From: Candidatus Hydrogenedentes bacterium ADurb.Bin170
Lineage (GTDB): Bacteria > Hydrogenedentota > Hydrogenedentia > Hydrogenedentales > CAITNO01
Length of the DNA stretch: 64,000 nucleotides
Assembly: GCA_002070275.1 (NCBI GenBank)
Contig: MWCY01000001.1
Coordinates: 62,001 to 126,000 of the forward strand
Reading direction: 5' to 3'
Position 1 is the first letter of the stretch. The number at the start of each line of letters is the position of its first letter. Shown piece by piece: positions 23,112 through 63,086 of the stretch. The translations under genes and the position numbers were made by a program. The notes beneath the pieces were generated by a model, which worked only from the letters and a program-made list of their open reading frames with translations, had not been told where the DNA came from and ran no database searches.

Positions 23112-25310
23112 ATGATCTCATCCGTTTCCGCAAGATTTCTCAGTGTCATGCTGCTCCTCTCCCTTCTGATGGCGCCTCTCTCTGCATCCGCTGAAGAGCC
23201 CTGCAAGCTGACGCCGGAGCAGGTATATCCTGTCTTGACTCAGCTGGTATTTGTGGTTTTTGACCTTGACCGGAACGATAAAATCACGCGCGAAGAAATA
23301 GCCGTAATTTCTCCGGAACTGGCGCAAGGTCCCGTCGGTGACTATGTGGCGGGGTATAAAAACGGTATCGGCCGCCACTATGTCAACGTCTATATTAAGG
23401 TATTGAACCCTCTGAAAATGGTCGACACGAACAAGGACGGTCTGATCCAATACGAAGAAGTGGGAGAGGATGTGCCCCGCGAGATCTTTGATATCCTGGA
23501 TCATAATCACAATGATGTCATTGACTGCGAAGACTTCGATTTTCTGACAGAGCCGTACAGCCAGGGGGATGGAGAAGAATGCGGCACCGAGGAAATTATG
23601 GCAATTGTTGCCCGGGGTGGCGTCCTCTATCTGGATCAGAATAATGATGAAATGCTCACCCGGGAAGAAATAATGACCGGAATTTCTGAAGCCGGCGACC
23701 TGGGATCTGACGAAGAAGTGTTCACGGCTGTATTTAACATGCTTGACGTTGATAAAGACGAGCTGGTTTCTGCCGTGGAACTGCATGCCACATTGCTGTC
23801 CATACCGATTAATCTGATGAATCTCATAGACCAGAATCAGGATAATGCAATCCAGTTTACTGAAGTTCCTTTTGTGCCGCCTCTTCTGTTTCTGCAGTTG
23901 GACACGGTGGTTAACGGGCAGCTTGATTGCGCTGATTACAAGGCGCAGGTGGCAACAGAAGAAATTGAATTGCCGAAAGGTGTTATAGGCGGTGTGGTGC
24001 GTGATGCAGCTACCAACCTTCCTCTCTCTGAAGCAGTTGTGACGCTGACCCCTGGCGGATTCTCCGATACGAGTCTGGCGCTGGTCGGCACCTTCGGGTT
24101 TTCTGACATCCCTTATGGTCGCTATACACTTCAGGTTGTCCTCGAGGGCTACGAGCCATTGACACAGATCATACGCATCAATCTGCCGATCACGACTCTC
24201 GACCTTTTGCTCCAGCCTGAAGCAGTGGAAGAAGGCGAGGTGGAAGGCGAATCTCCGGCTCTCGTGACGCTTGCCGGCGTTGTTCGTGATCAGGATACAG
24301 GGTTTCCGATCTCCGGCGCACTGGTTACCTTGACTCCTGGAGATTTCCAAGAGGTTTCTTTGGATATTCTGGGGACCTTTATGTTCAATGAAATTCCCGC
24401 AGGGAACTACAGGCTAGCCGTAACAAAAGAGGGATACCAGACCTACAGTACAGATCTTTTTCTTGAGAGCGGTTTCGGTGATGTGATAGATGTTCCCCTG
24501 ACTGCTGAAAATACAATAGAGGGCGAAGAGCAGCCTGTCGAGGGCGAAGAGCAGCCTGTCGAGGGCGAAGTGGCGCCTGCCGAAGGCGAAACAGGCGACG
24601 TAGAAGGCGAGGAGTCTCCGGAAGAGGGCGAAGTGCAGCCTGCCGAAGGCGAAACGGTGCCCGACAACGGAGAAAAAGGTGTTATTACCGGAATAATCAG
24701 AAACAACGCGACCTGGTTGCCGGTGGGAAAAGCGGTGGTACGTCTTACACCGGGCGGATATGAGACAACAAGCGACGATATATCCGGGACATACCTCTTT
24801 TCGTCAATCCCTCTTGGGAAATATACCATTCATGTGGCACATCCTGCATTTCAAAGCTATGCAGAGGCAGTGGAGCTTAAAAGAGGCCTGTTCGGAGTTG
24901 CGAATCTTCTGGCTCTGGATATTGTATTGACGATGACAGAAGCGGAGGGTGAAGTGCAGCCTGCGGAGGGTGAAGTGCAGCCTGCGGAGGGTGAAGTGCA
25001 GCCTGCGGAAGGTGAAGTGCAGCCTGTCGAGGGTGAAGTGCAGCCTGTCGAAGGGGAAGTGCAGCCTGTCGAGGGTGAAGTGCAGCCTGCGGAGGGTGAA
25101 GTGCAGCCTGTCGAGGGTGAAGTGCAGCCTGTCGAAGGGGAAGACGTTGCGCAAGAAGGCGAGGCGGAAGATGAGGAAGATGATGGCGCCGGGATCTCCG
25201 GCTGCTTCAGTTCTTCCAAGGCATCGCCCAAAGCATTTCTCGCGGATTGGCTTCTGCTGGCGCTGAGCTTTATGAGTGTCGGTGTTCTTCGTTCTCTGAA
25301 GGAAAAATAA
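23112..25310 (+). CDS. exported EF-hand / carboxypeptidase-regulatory-repeat surface protein with EGE-rich stalk and C-terminal anchor
   Basis: A 732-residue exported protein with a signal peptide (1-27, cut near ASA). Residues 50-275 hold six EF-hand-like calcium loops of the DxDxNDxxxxxE kind (51-62, 105-116, 130-141, 175-186, 212-223 and 240-251). Three carboxypeptidase-regulatory-like beta-sandwich units follow (about 290-368, 386-465 and 525-605), each opening like GVVRDAATNLPLSEAVVTLT. Two low-complexity Glu-Gly-Glu linkers separate or follow them: 470-525, then nine tandem EGEVQP(A/V) units at 612-674. The tail has a Gly-Cys pair (ISGCFSSS), a hydrophobic segment (ADWLLLALSFMSVGVL) and RSLKEK, which is the layout of a C-terminal sorting/anchoring signal. 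I infer a calcium-stiffened surface or matrix protein; binding partners are unknown. Confidence 0.8.
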   Translation: MISSVSARFLSVMLLLSLLMAPLSASAEEPCKLTPEQVYPVLTQLVFVVFDLDRNDKITREEIAVISPELAQGPVGDYVAGYKNGIGRHYVNVYIKVLNPLKMVDTNKDGLIQYEEVGEDVPREIFDILDHNHNDVIDCEDFDFLTEPYSQGDGEECGTEEIMAIVARGGVLYLDQNNDEMLTREEIMTGISEAGDLGSDEEVFTAVFNMLDVDKDELVSAVELHATLLSIPINLMNLIDQNQDNAIQFTEVPFVPPLLFLQLDTVVNGQLDCADYKAQVATEEIELPKGVIGGVVRDAATNLPLSEAVVTLTPGGFSDTSLALVGTFGFSDIPYGRYTLQVVLEGYEPLTQIIRINLPITTLDLLLQPEAVEEGEVEGESPALVTLAGVVRDQDTGFPISGALVTLTPGDFQEVSLDILGTFMFNEIPAGNYRLAVTKEGYQTYSTDLFLESGFGDVIDVPLTAENTIEGEEQPVEGEEQPVEGEVAPAEGETGDVEGEESPEEGEVQPAEGETVPDNGEKGVITGIIRNNATWLPVGKAVVRLTPGGYETTSDDISGTYLFSSIPLGKYTIHVAHPAFQSYAEAVELKRGLFGVANLLALDIVLTMTEAEGEVQPAEGEVQPAEGEVQPAEGEVQPVEGEVQPVEGEVQPVEGEVQPAEGEVQPVEGEVQPVEGEDVAQEGEAEDEEDDGAGISGCFSSSKASPKAFLADWLLLALSFMSVGVLRSLKEK
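24519..24671 (+). repeat. first EGE-rich linker in the EF-hand protein
   Basis: An irregular low-complexity coding stretch (residues about 470-520) built from EGEEQPV, EGEVAPA, EGEESPE and similar heptads, located between the second and third beta-sandwich units. It is less regular than the array at 24945, suggesting an older version of the same repeat. Confidence 0.8.
24945..25133 (+). repeat. nine tandem 21-bp units encoding EGEVQP(A/V)
   Basis: Nine in-frame copies of a 21-bp unit (GAGGGTGAAGTGCAGCCT plus GCG or GTC). The copies differ mainly at the last codon and by a few silent changes, so expansion is probably recent. It is a protein-coding tandem repeat, not a CRISPR array, and copy number may vary between strains. 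Confidence 0.95.
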
Positions 25311-26236: not shown

Positions 26237-26350
26237 CACGTCTATTACATCCCGGTATAATCGTTTCATCATCCTTGCTGTCGGCGTCTTTTGAAAGATT
26301 CCTGTCTGCGCAACCCGACGTTTCACGTCAACATGAAGGAAGCGATGCCT

Positions 26351-27361
26351 ATGAAAAGGCTGACTTTCGATACCTTTATACCTCATAAAAGCAATCAGGG
26401 TGCCTATGAAATAGCCCGGGAAGTCGCAAGAATGCAACCTGAGCTTCCGAGGCCCGTTGTGTTTCTGGGTGAATCGGGATCAGGCAAAACACACCTTCTC
26501 TGGGCGATTGTGAATTATTTTCGTGACCGGAACAGCGTTGTTCGCCTGGCGTTAATTTCTCCCCGTGATTTCCCCGACAAAGTGAAGAGACTTTCTTCAG
26601 ATGAAGATAAATTAAAAGCCCAACCGCCCATTGTCCTTCTGGTGGATGACCTGCATGGTTTTGCACAACACGCCGCAGATCTCGAAAAAACAGTACTCGC
26701 TCTTATTCAGCACGGCCATAACGCCGTACTCGCGACCCGGATTCATCCGAATGTTCTTTCCGGATTCAGCGGAAAATTCAAGGCACTTTTGAATGCCGGC
26801 GCCATTGCAGGTATTAAGGCACTTCCGAAAGCGGAAGGCACGATTATCCCTGAAGCCGCTCTCGATCAGATTTTAGAGCTGAAATCAAAAGTGACCCGCT
26901 TACAGAAAGACAAGGCCTTGCTCGAAGCGGAAAAAGGAGGAGCCGCGGCGGCACCTAAAGAAGATGCCGTCGCTCCGGCGGTGCCTCAGGCTGATACAGC
27001 CTCTTCCGTTTCCCGGGAACACTTTAATCGGGCACTTAAGGAAATACAAAAGGCGCGCGCAGAAACTGAATCCTGGAAAAAGACAGCGGCGGCTATGATG
27101 AATCGGGTGGAAAGTTATAAAGCACTGCAGCAATCTCAATTCAGCAGTATAGAAGAGAAGATCCAGGAACTTCTTGCTTTTGCCGATCAGGACATTCTGT
27201 CGCTTGATGAAGAAAGCCTGCATGCTGCCAATGCTGAGATAACGGCTATTCTCGCGAGAAGCAGCGCGGAGCATGCGGCTGCGCTGCAGGGAGAAAGTCA
27301 GAAAACGCTTCGTTCTCTTGCCGAGCAGTTCAAAGCGTTGGATGATACGCTTCCCGGATAA
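26351..27361 (+). CDS. DnaA/Hda-like AAA+ ATPase with a C-terminal coiled coil instead of a DNA-binding domain
   Basis: The 336-residue frame from the ATG at 26351 (AAGGA about 10 bp upstream) starts MKRLTFDTFIPHKSNQGAYE, like the opening of DnaA domain III. The P-loop is GESGSGKT (40-47) and Walker B is PPIVLLVDDLHGF (92-104). A sensor-1-like stretch is LATRIHPNVLSGF (128-140). The region where DnaA carries its arginine finger reads FKALLNAGAIAGI, with no arginine. There is no domain IV helix-turn-helix. Instead, residues 172-196 and 220-330 are predicted coiled coil, separated by an Ala/Pro-rich linker. The roles of DnaA and Hda (origin firing, its regulation) may not apply. Longer starts (TTG at 26291, ATG at 26333) are possible. 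Confidence 0.8.
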   Translation: MKRLTFDTFIPHKSNQGAYEIAREVARMQPELPRPVVFLGESGSGKTHLLWAIVNYFRDRNSVVRLALISPRDFPDKVKRLSSDEDKLKAQPPIVLLVDDLHGFAQHAADLEKTVLALIQHGHNAVLATRIHPNVLSGFSGKFKALLNAGAIAGIKALPKAEGTIIPEAALDQILELKSKVTRLQKDKALLEAEKGGAAAAPKEDAVAPAVPQADTASSVSREHFNRALKEIQKARAETESWKKTAAAMMNRVESYKALQQSQFSSIEEKIQELLAFADQDILSLDEESLHAANAEITAILARSSAEHAAALQGESQKTLRSLAEQFKALDDTLPG

Positions 27362-61046: not shown

Positions 61047-63086
61047 ATGAGAACACCCATTCTTTTAGTTGTGTTAACCGCTCTTTTCTGTATTGGACTG
61101 CTCGGGATTGTAGGGTACACCCAGGCGCAGTCCGAGCCCCTGGAAGGGTATACTTTAGCCTTGAACGGTGCACCGAATCAACGGTATACGGTGGGTGATG
61201 TGTACTTCGAGGCGGGTTTGTCGATTCACCCGCCTTTGGATGATGCCGAAAAAAAAGTCAAGGTAAGCCTTTTTATTTTGCCTTCGCTGAACGCAGCTCA
61301 TACGACCTATCTGGCATATATAGGTTCAGAATTTAATGAAAAGGGATTTAATCAGAAGGCTGCGAAATATGAACTGAGATACAGTCTGGGTAGTTCGTCC
61401 GTGGTTCGGCAGTTTTGTTATGCCTCTCTTGCAGGTGCGCGAATTGCGCTCCTCGGTGATGCTGAGATGACAGTAGAATGCGGCACTTCCTTCATAGATC
61501 CGGGTGCTGCCGCCGATGACGAGTGTGATGGCGATCTGACTTCACAAATTATTGCTGCGGGGAATGTTAATACGAAGAGCCCCGGTGAGTATACACGCCT
61601 TTATTCAGTAACAAACTCACAGGGCAATAAAACGGAAGTAACAAGAAAGATCACAGTTGTCGATACCCTTAAACCTGCTCTCCAATTACTGGGTCGTGAA
61701 ATTATAAATATTCCGTTGAACGGTACTTTTACCGATCCCGGGGCAACGGCTTCCGACAGCTGCGATGGTGATCTTACCGGCAGCATTCTGGTGGATGACA
61801 GCGAACTTAACCCATCGGAAGCAGGGGACTATTCCGTCAGGTACAGTGTGCAGGACAGTGCCGGCAATGTGGCGGAAGCTGTTCGTACTGTCCGTGTCGG
61901 CTGTGTTTCGCCCGGCCCTGTAATCGAATTGAATGGCGATGCCGTGATGGAGGCGGAATGCGGAGAGATTTTTGCTGACCCGGGTGTTCAGGCATGGGAC
62001 GAGTGTGAAGAAGATGAAATTAATGATACGGTGGAGTATACGGATGACGGAAGCTTTGCCAGTACGGGAACGGTGCGCCGGACTTACAAAGTAACCAATT
62101 ATATGGGATTACAGGCACAAGTGACCCGTACAATTACAGTAGTCGATACAAAAGCGCCTGTGATTACCCTCAATGGCAAGGAAACGGTGAGCCTCCTTGT
62201 AGGCGATAATTATACGGAGAGTGGCGCTGACGCCTTTGATGCCTGTGAAGGTGCAGTCTCTGTATCCGTTGAGGGAGTGGATGCTGTCGATACTTCCGTT
62301 ATAGGAAGATACTTTGTCACCTACCGCGCTTCCGATTCTTTGGGTAATGAAGCCGTTAAAACACGATTGATCCGTGTCGGCTGTGGAACGCCCGGCCCTG
62401 TAATCGAATTGAATGGCGATGCCGTGATGGAGGCGGAATGCGGAGAGATTTTTGCTGACCCGGGCGCAACGGCAACCAATGAGATTGGAACTGTTGAGTA
62501 TCCCGTTACGGCGACTAAACTGCCGAAAGAAGCACTGTCTGTGCCCGGCGAATATGTCATTATCTACAGTGCCACCAATGAACTGGGCAACACGCTGGAT
62601 GTTGCCCGCAAAGTGATCGTAGTTGACACGAAAAAACCGGTCATTGTGCTGCGCGGCGCTGCAGAAGTAATCGTGGATGAAGGCAGTGTATATGTGGATC
62701 CGGGCGTGTTGTCCGCTCTGGATGATTGCGATGGCGACCTGCGGAAAGATGTGCTTTTTGAATCGGACGTTGATACGTCAGCCGTTGGCGTGTACCACGT
62801 TGAATTTTTCGTCCGTGATTCTTCAGGCAATCGTGCCATGGCAGTGCGTACAGCGCAGGTTCGAAAAGCTGTCGCCCCGGGCGAAGGAGAAAATGAGGGA
62901 GAAGTGGTGGAAGGCGAGCCCGATACTGAAGGCGAAGATCCTGTAACAGAAGGTGAGGATGTCGATCCGGACGATGAATGCCCTGGATGCGGATGCAGGC
63001 ACGGAGGCATTATCGGTGATCTTTTCATGGCGGGCCTGAGCCTTGCCTTTATTTTCTTCATGATTTTCATTCATGAAAAGATATAG
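61047..63086 (+). CDS. DUF5011-repeat surface protein with EGE stalk and C-terminal anchor
   Basis: A 679-residue exported protein; the ATG at 61047 follows AAGGATACATGCC, and the signal peptide ends near YTQAQ. Five or so Ig-like DUF5011 repeats (about 140-610) each contain a Glu-Cys-Gly-type start, an Asp-Pro-Gly-Ala-type turn and a closing VRYSVQDSAGN-like strand. The linker GEGENEGEVVEGEPDTEGED is followed by a cysteine cluster, DDECPGCGCRHGGII, and a hydrophobic segment, GDLFMAGLSLAFIFFMIFIHE. This stalk/Cys/membrane layout repeats that of the EF-hand protein at 23112, implying a shared anchoring route. It may be an adhesin. Repeats 2 and 4 are nearly identical in DNA. Confidence 0.82.
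   Translation: MRTPILLVVLTALFCIGLLGIVGYTQAQSEPLEGYTLALNGAPNQRYTVGDVYFEAGLSIHPPLDDAEKKVKVSLFILPSLNAAHTTYLAYIGSEFNEKGFNQKAAKYELRYSLGSSSVVRQFCYASLAGARIALLGDAEMTVECGTSFIDPGAAADDECDGDLTSQIIAAGNVNTKSPGEYTRLYSVTNSQGNKTEVTRKITVVDTLKPALQLLGREIINIPLNGTFTDPGATASDSCDGDLTGSILVDDSELNPSEAGDYSVRYSVQDSAGNVAEAVRTVRVGCVSPGPVIELNGDAVMEAECGEIFADPGVQAWDECEEDEINDTVEYTDDGSFASTGTVRRTYKVTNYMGLQAQVTRTITVVDTKAPVITLNGKETVSLLVGDNYTESGADAFDACEGAVSVSVEGVDAVDTSVIGRYFVTYRASDSLGNEAVKTRLIRVGCGTPGPVIELNGDAVMEAECGEIFADPGATATNEIGTVEYPVTATKLPKEALSVPGEYVIIYSATNELGNTLDVARKVIVVDTKKPVIVLRGAAEVIVDEGSVYVDPGVLSALDDCDGDLRKDVLFESDVDTSAVGVYHVEFFVRDSSGNRAMAVRTAQVRKAVAPGEGENEGEVVEGEPDTEGEDPVTEGEDVDPDDECPGCGCRHGGIIGDLFMAGLSLAFIFFMIFIHEKI
61891..61984 (+). 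repeat. DNA-level duplicate inside the DUF5011 gene, copy 1
   Basis: This 94-bp block matches 62371-62464 with only three mismatches (TTT versus GAA at 61906-61908). The last 76 bp (61909-61984) are identical. The copies are exactly 480 bp (160 codons) apart. Confidence 0.95.
62371..62464 (+). repeat. DNA-level duplicate inside the DUF5011 gene, copy 2
   Basis: The second copy of the 94-bp block, in the same frame as copy 1. Other DUF5011 repeats in the gene are much less alike, so this pair arose by recent duplication or gene conversion. Confidence 0.95.

Follow-up and report, generated by a model that had tools for sequence, protein, structure and literature searches.

The protein encoded at 23112..25310 of the window analysed here (the whole stretch of 64,000 nucleotides, positions 62,001 to 126,000 of contig MWCY01000001.1 from Candidatus Hydrogenedentes bacterium ADurb.Bin170) raises the question of what its C-terminal end is for: does it hold the chain in the membrane as a plain anchor, or does it mark the protein for a sorting enzyme, and if so, for which one? 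An initial annotation of the locus had described a modular chain running from a signal peptide to a basic tail. This anatomy proved to be real, with Pfam domains scoring above their cut-offs.

The ORF, which like all its features lies on the + strand, starts with ATG, is immediately preceded on its 5' side by AAGGAAAGAG and encodes 732 aa; the ORF list, Pfam and reading of the sequence together point to an exported calcium-binding surface protein. A predicted Sec-type signal peptide, read from the sequence (23112..23192; MISSVSARFLSVMLLLSLLMAPLSASA), is followed by an EF-hand block (23262..23936) recognized by Pfam EF-hand_7, EF-hand_6 and EF-hand_1 and by a loop scan, with loops at 23262, 23424, 23499, 23634, 23745, 23829 and 23901. 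EF-hand_7 is found in three stretches of the protein (E 1.3e-13; 51.5 bits against a gathering threshold of 30). The six EF-hands counted initially correspond to six good, canonical loops in the loop scan. As a total, however, the count falls short, since the loop at 23901 (DTVVNGQLDCAD) is a seventh, degenerate and dockerin-like one, bringing the number of EF-hand-like loops to seven.

The EF-hand block precedes three carboxypeptidase-regulatory-like beta-sandwiches, detected as three stretches of CarboxypepD_reg (PF13620; E 9.9e-30; 103 bits against a gathering threshold of 32). The first spans 23970..24227, with approximate limits, the second, which is the best stretch, 24267..24500 (residues 386-463) and the third 24672..24923, in a region also covered by NF052345 (506-604). 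Acidic EGE segments alternate with them: a first spacer at 24216..24263, identified by sequence reading, and, by sequence reading and tandem repeats, a second spacer at 24504..24665 and a stalk of EGEVQPV/A repeats at 24930..25175. In total the protein contains 20 EGE triplets, and 21-bp tandem arrays (24519-24590 and 24942-25143) encode the acidic EGE spacers. The chain closes with the putative sorting tail (GAGISGCFSSSKASPKAFLADWLLLALSFMSVGVLRSLKEK; 25182..25310, including the stop). Within it, a Gly-Cys at 25200..25205 is the presumed processing or lipidation site, and the stretch 25239..25304 contains L-A-D-W, the motif with which the C-terminal transmembrane helix (LADWLLLALSFMSVGVL) opens, followed by the basic end RSLKEK. 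Elsewhere in the window, an ORF at 26291-27361 (+) encodes a protein whose sole Pfam match is a DnaA-type ATPase domain (PF00308, E 2.9e-17), so that the DnaA DNA-binding domain is absent.

Searching the genome for other proteins sharing the last 45 residues, as the initial annotation had proposed, was done with profile A1, built from eight tails. It matches the C-terminal ends of 13 proteins in the same genome; one of these is the window copy (9.4e-18), itself a member of A1. Matches outside the building set were obtained on contigs C70 (E 8.5e-18), C44 (1.4e-16), C99 (8.9e-9) and C10 (2.7e-6); a further protein on C50 matches A1 only weakly (3.18), yet its end, SACDGCSGSGKALGDYLLLGCVMLLLAQSSFFRK, clearly belongs with the others. 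The whole window protein used as a query likewise recovered other EGE proteins with similar ends, and the C10 protein carries no EGE repeat at all. Ahead of the tail, Pfam identifies unrelated bodies, among them Bact_surface_Ig-like repeats, HYR, PASTA, GLUG and the window protein's own EF-hand/CarboxypepD combination, and signal peptides are readable in most of the complete tail-bearing proteins. In a sister genome of the same genus, three tail-bearing proteins stand in a row (L257; G013:C192, 3062-13999, -), forming a local adhesin-like cluster. An ORF of 110 aa in the own genome (L252; G000:C87, 1164-1493, +) consists almost wholly of a signal peptide, an EGE linker and the sorting tail. 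Its end is odd (GCAPFRKCLAQKNVVCP) and the sister genome continues to SGSVWRRKM in another frame, so L252 is, judging by these reading frames, probably a frameshifted or decayed copy.

Which features of the tail are constant was determined from 57 distinct tails, in 56 of which the motif could be parsed automatically. The signature comprises a Gly-Cys, a stretch of 7-22 residues, L[GAS][DEN][WLFY] opening the helix, and terminal K/R. All 57 tails contain the upstream Cys, in 53 of them as Gly-Cys, and many have a GCGC core; the chance of finding a Cys in a window of the same size further upstream is 0.32. The distance from Cys to L[GAS][DEN] has a median of 14 residues (n=56), this motif lies 20-32 residues before the C-terminus, the C-terminal end is net positive in 55 of the 56 parsed tails, and in 53 of the 57 no more than 6 residues separate the end of the profile match from the stop. 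The tail outside the automatic parse (L080) also has a Cys and a GD motif. We refer to this form below as the LGD tail.

EGE/GEG repeats accompany 40 of the 57 tails and an EF-hand loop 15. Since both accompany only part of the tails, they are common companions and not the signal itself, and the earlier suggestion that EGE belongs to the signal is not supported: 17 of the 57 tails have no EGE nearby. Nor is a very unusual domain order supported, given that EF-hands directly ahead of the tail are common in the phylum (15/57). Outside the LGD form, four EGE proteins (L119, L125, L140 and L263, in G041, G020, G043 and G058; families f3, f9 and f11) have a Cys, mostly as Gly-Cys, before a C-terminal helix with basic residues and no LGD. 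On the strength of such ends, the LGD tail may represent a branch within a broader class of Cys tails.

To follow the tail beyond its own genome, a profile of 37 tails was run against 68 Hydrogenedentota genomes, giving about 350 matches in 34 of them. In the own family, f1, every genome carries the tail (17/17, with 2-36 copies each); in f7 it is present in five genomes (11-28 each), in f6 in one genome (11), and in f2, f4, f5, f8 and f9 in small numbers. The sister family f11 yields one match at E<=0.01 in all of its 25 genomes and serves as an internal specificity control. A pattern from a closer tail set (A5), LGDWLLxGLS, was scanned against 84,980 species genomes and gave seven confirmed loci, all from Candidatus Hydrogenedentota; because the pattern is narrow, this does not prove that the tail is absent outside the phylum. 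Queries against genome contigs with the protein of the window itself and with A4, a diverse set of tails, gave no matches or no usable pattern. As far as seen, the tail is thus confined to Hydrogenedentota, and our literature search returned no paper on sorting tails in this phylum.

These observations bear on the simplest alternative, namely an ordinary membrane anchor at the C-terminus, whose Cys pair forms disulfides or has no special role and whose LGD serves helix packing. The variable spacing between Cys and helix, 7-22 residues, would suit such an anchor. A plain anchor would not, however, be expected to retain a Cys, L-G-D and the same position when carried by dozens of unrelated proteins in a genome, yet be nearly absent from f11. 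We therefore consider a plain anchor unlikely. The tail, with its conserved Cys and L-G-D-W/L/F in place of the variable sequence of an ordinary transmembrane segment, is probably a true sorting signal, as the initial annotation had surmised for this end with its Gly-Cys ahead of the helix. Neither of the refuting outcomes named there was observed, since many other proteins share the tail and its sequence is not that of a variable transmembrane anchor.

When 37 aligned, diverse tails were compared with NCBIfam, no known sorting model matched, GlyGly-CTERM included. TIGR03901 (MYXO-CTERM) was listed for none of the 37 at E<=1. VPDSG-CTERM (TIGR03778) was the sole known sorting-tail model touched by several tails, 3 of the 37, at a best E of 0.086 that is not significant, and its VPDSG motif is absent from the LGD tail. 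In architecture, the closest resemblance is nevertheless to the MYXO-CTERM/MrtX system of Myxococcota: a tripartite tail with a Cys (often GCGC), a helix and a basic end, present on dozens of proteins per genome that are exported surface proteins with unrelated bodies. GCGC is the generic MYXO-CTERM motif, and myxosortase has been demonstrated experimentally (PMC11980579). The LGD tail differs in adding L-G-D-W/L/F at the start of the helix, in occurring in another phylum and in lacking a TIGR03901 match. From its sequence, it thus appears to work like a MYXO-CTERM-type tail yet fails that family's model test, and it seems not to have been catalogued previously.

Cys-type sorting tails are known from Myxococcota, Synergistota and Thermococcales. 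The CGP-CTERM tail of Thermococcales contains a Cys and is served by a CPBP protease, archaeomyxosortase MrtA. The LGD tail shares the Cys, and one CPBP type of the phylum, L025, is distantly similar to MrtA (NF040590). It differs in having no Cys-Gly-Pro directly at the helix, and the MrtA score remains far under the cut-off of 200.

As to the enzyme, the initial annotation was right, as far as examined, that the window does not reveal it; candidates are encoded elsewhere in the genome. One possibility is that the XrtH-like exosortase L145 (2095-3153, -; G000:C2:88624) processes the tail, which would then represent a PEP-CTERM/IPTL-CTERM route modified by the presence of a Cys. L145 has an unusual N-terminal extension and scores 70.4 bits, below the TIGR04177 cut-off of 86. 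XrtH-like proteins exceed the TIGR04178 cut-off with Cys, Arg and His kept, and their gene is nearly universal in the phylum, adjoined by a small membrane partner and often also by an epimerase-like gene. About 30 of the 34 genomes with LGD tails possess it. In one genome, G031, the XrtH-like gene follows the end of a tail gene at a distance of about 500 bp, an arrangement that favours the exosortase but is a single case. The context of the active-site Cys is ECGA(I/F)E in tail-bearing lineages versus DCGA(I/L)PS in two f11 copies, a difference that may be plain phylogeny. Conversely, no XrtH-like gene was found in the tail-rich genomes G035, G017 and G019, nor, with the Pfam model, in G006, and we know of no exosortase signal that holds an invariant Cys.

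Moreover, the XrtH-like exosortase has a candidate partner of its own. The own genome contains a second tail type, GVPALSRLGVLLASAAALAAGAAALRKKRD, which is IPTL-like (24.9 bits against a cut-off of 20.5), and another VPAL/IPTL-type tail, VPAAGAVALVALSAALAGIGLARSRRK. Tails of this class lie at L223 (VPALSRLG..., terminating in RKKRD; G000:C35:27852-27929, -) and L262 (VPAAGAVAL..., terminating in RSRRK; G000:C11:38095-38172, +), and similar ends are seen across the phylum. The same genome thus contains counterparts of both members of the IPTL-CTERM/exosortase H pair, namely an XrtH-like enzyme and a tail of VPAL type; unlike IPTL-CTERM, the LGD tail carries a Cys and has the IPTL/VPAL motif at the helix start in none of 57 tails, making it a separate, second class. 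The VPAL/IPTL tail is the expected natural substrate of the XrtH-like exosortase, so that a different enzyme probably acts on the Cys tail; we regard processing of the latter by the exosortase as improbable. A full-length EpsH-type exosortase (PF09721) was also discarded as tail enzyme, being almost absent from the tail-rich f1 and present in the tail-poor f11.

The remaining candidates are intramembrane proteases. The own genome encodes four CPBP proteins (L023, L024, L025 and L026), none of which exceeds 15 bits with the Mrt core model NF040914 (cut-off 100), and no MrtX-family enzyme over cut-off was present among the CPBPs scanned. Orthologues of L025 (G000:C17) keep E-x3-R and the two His residues, and L025-type proteins were found in nearly all of 40 genomes tested. 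Some of these orthologues match MrtA over nearly the full length of MrtA, at 48 bits in G047, the best case, and 27.6 in G011; the own-genome L025 gives no MrtA match. Control CPBPs of the phylum score 18-43 bits with several Mrt models, in most cases aligning only to the core. Similarity to MrtJ/MrtS at 20-43 bits is generic among these CPBPs and proves nothing by itself, and the match of L025 orthologues to MrtA is a hint and not an assignment. L025-type proteins were not found in G024 (99% complete, 3 tails), G004, G010 and G027, and they do occur in f11, a family nearly devoid of LGD tails.

For the co-occurring membrane protease that the initial annotation had advised looking for there are several candidates, but presence patterns single out none. 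Among the 34 tail-bearing genomes, XrtH-like, L025-type and rhomboid proteins are each present in about 30, and each is also encountered in genomes devoid of the tail, so that these patterns do not discriminate between enzymes; that they tie no processing enzyme to the tail is also what a plain anchor would predict. In single-tail f5 genomes, no adjacent enzyme of the kind found in MrtJ/JDVT pairs was seen.

Processing by a different CPBP of the L023 type or by the single rhomboid would agree with the wide distribution of both in the phylum and with the weak MrtJ likeness of L023 (25 bits), a similarity that is generic among these CPBPs. L023 lies in a conserved GNAT-GNAT-CPBP-ABC transporter order that is also present in tail-less f11 genomes, for which reason it was dropped as favourite. 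The rhomboid, present in one copy in the own genome, was downgraded because it was not found in the tail-bearing genomes G009, G010, G012 and G017. We judge either enzyme very unlikely to serve the tail. L024 and L026 (G000:C2:40491 and G000:C9:76448), paralogous CPBP-like membrane proteins of about 400-450 aa, are present in f1, f2, f5 and f8 but lacking in f7 and in most f11 genomes. They were rejected, since WGxxQQ takes the place of the expected catalytic Glu pair and since they are missing in the tail-rich f7, G006 and G031. L025 could tentatively be put forward as the tail's enzyme, though with less than even confidence.

By analogy with the experimentally demonstrated myxosortase (PMC11980579), the following mechanism can be proposed. 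The signal peptide would carry the chain across the inner membrane by the Sec route, after which the C-terminal helix would hold it there temporarily. The tripartite signal would consist of the Gly-Cys, a short polar basic linker, the L-G-D-W/L/F motif at which the helix opens, and the K/R end. An intramembrane protease, likeliest the conserved CPBP glutamic protease L025, a distant relative of MrtA encoded outside the window, would recognize the Cys and LGD, cleave near the Cys and remove the helix. The protein would remain anchored by a lipid, or by some other group attached to the Cys, and be moved to the cell surface, where the EGE stalk would space the beta-sandwich and calcium-binding head from the membrane. 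No lipidating enzyme was identified. Taken as a whole, we lean towards a Sec-exported, modular calcium-binding surface protein bearing an uncatalogued tripartite sorting signal, with L025 as the likeliest protease. More speculatively, the phylum may possess a pathway of its own, in which dozens of calcium-binding and Ig-like adhesins are fixed to the surface by a CPBP glutamic intramembrane protease that recognizes both Gly-Cys and L-G-D at the helix start, beside a separate XrtH/VPAL pathway in the same cell.

Two separate C-terminal sorting classes thus appear to coexist in one genome, with candidate enzymes named for them. Since the LGD tail resembles known sorting tails and matches none on record, a probable protein-anchoring pathway becomes testable. 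With the tail profile, several hundred proteins now labelled 'hypothetical' in this uncultured phylum could be annotated as probable surface proteins and, if the CPBP protease is confirmed, a further independent lineage, distinguished by an additional recognition motif, would join those with Cys-type tails.
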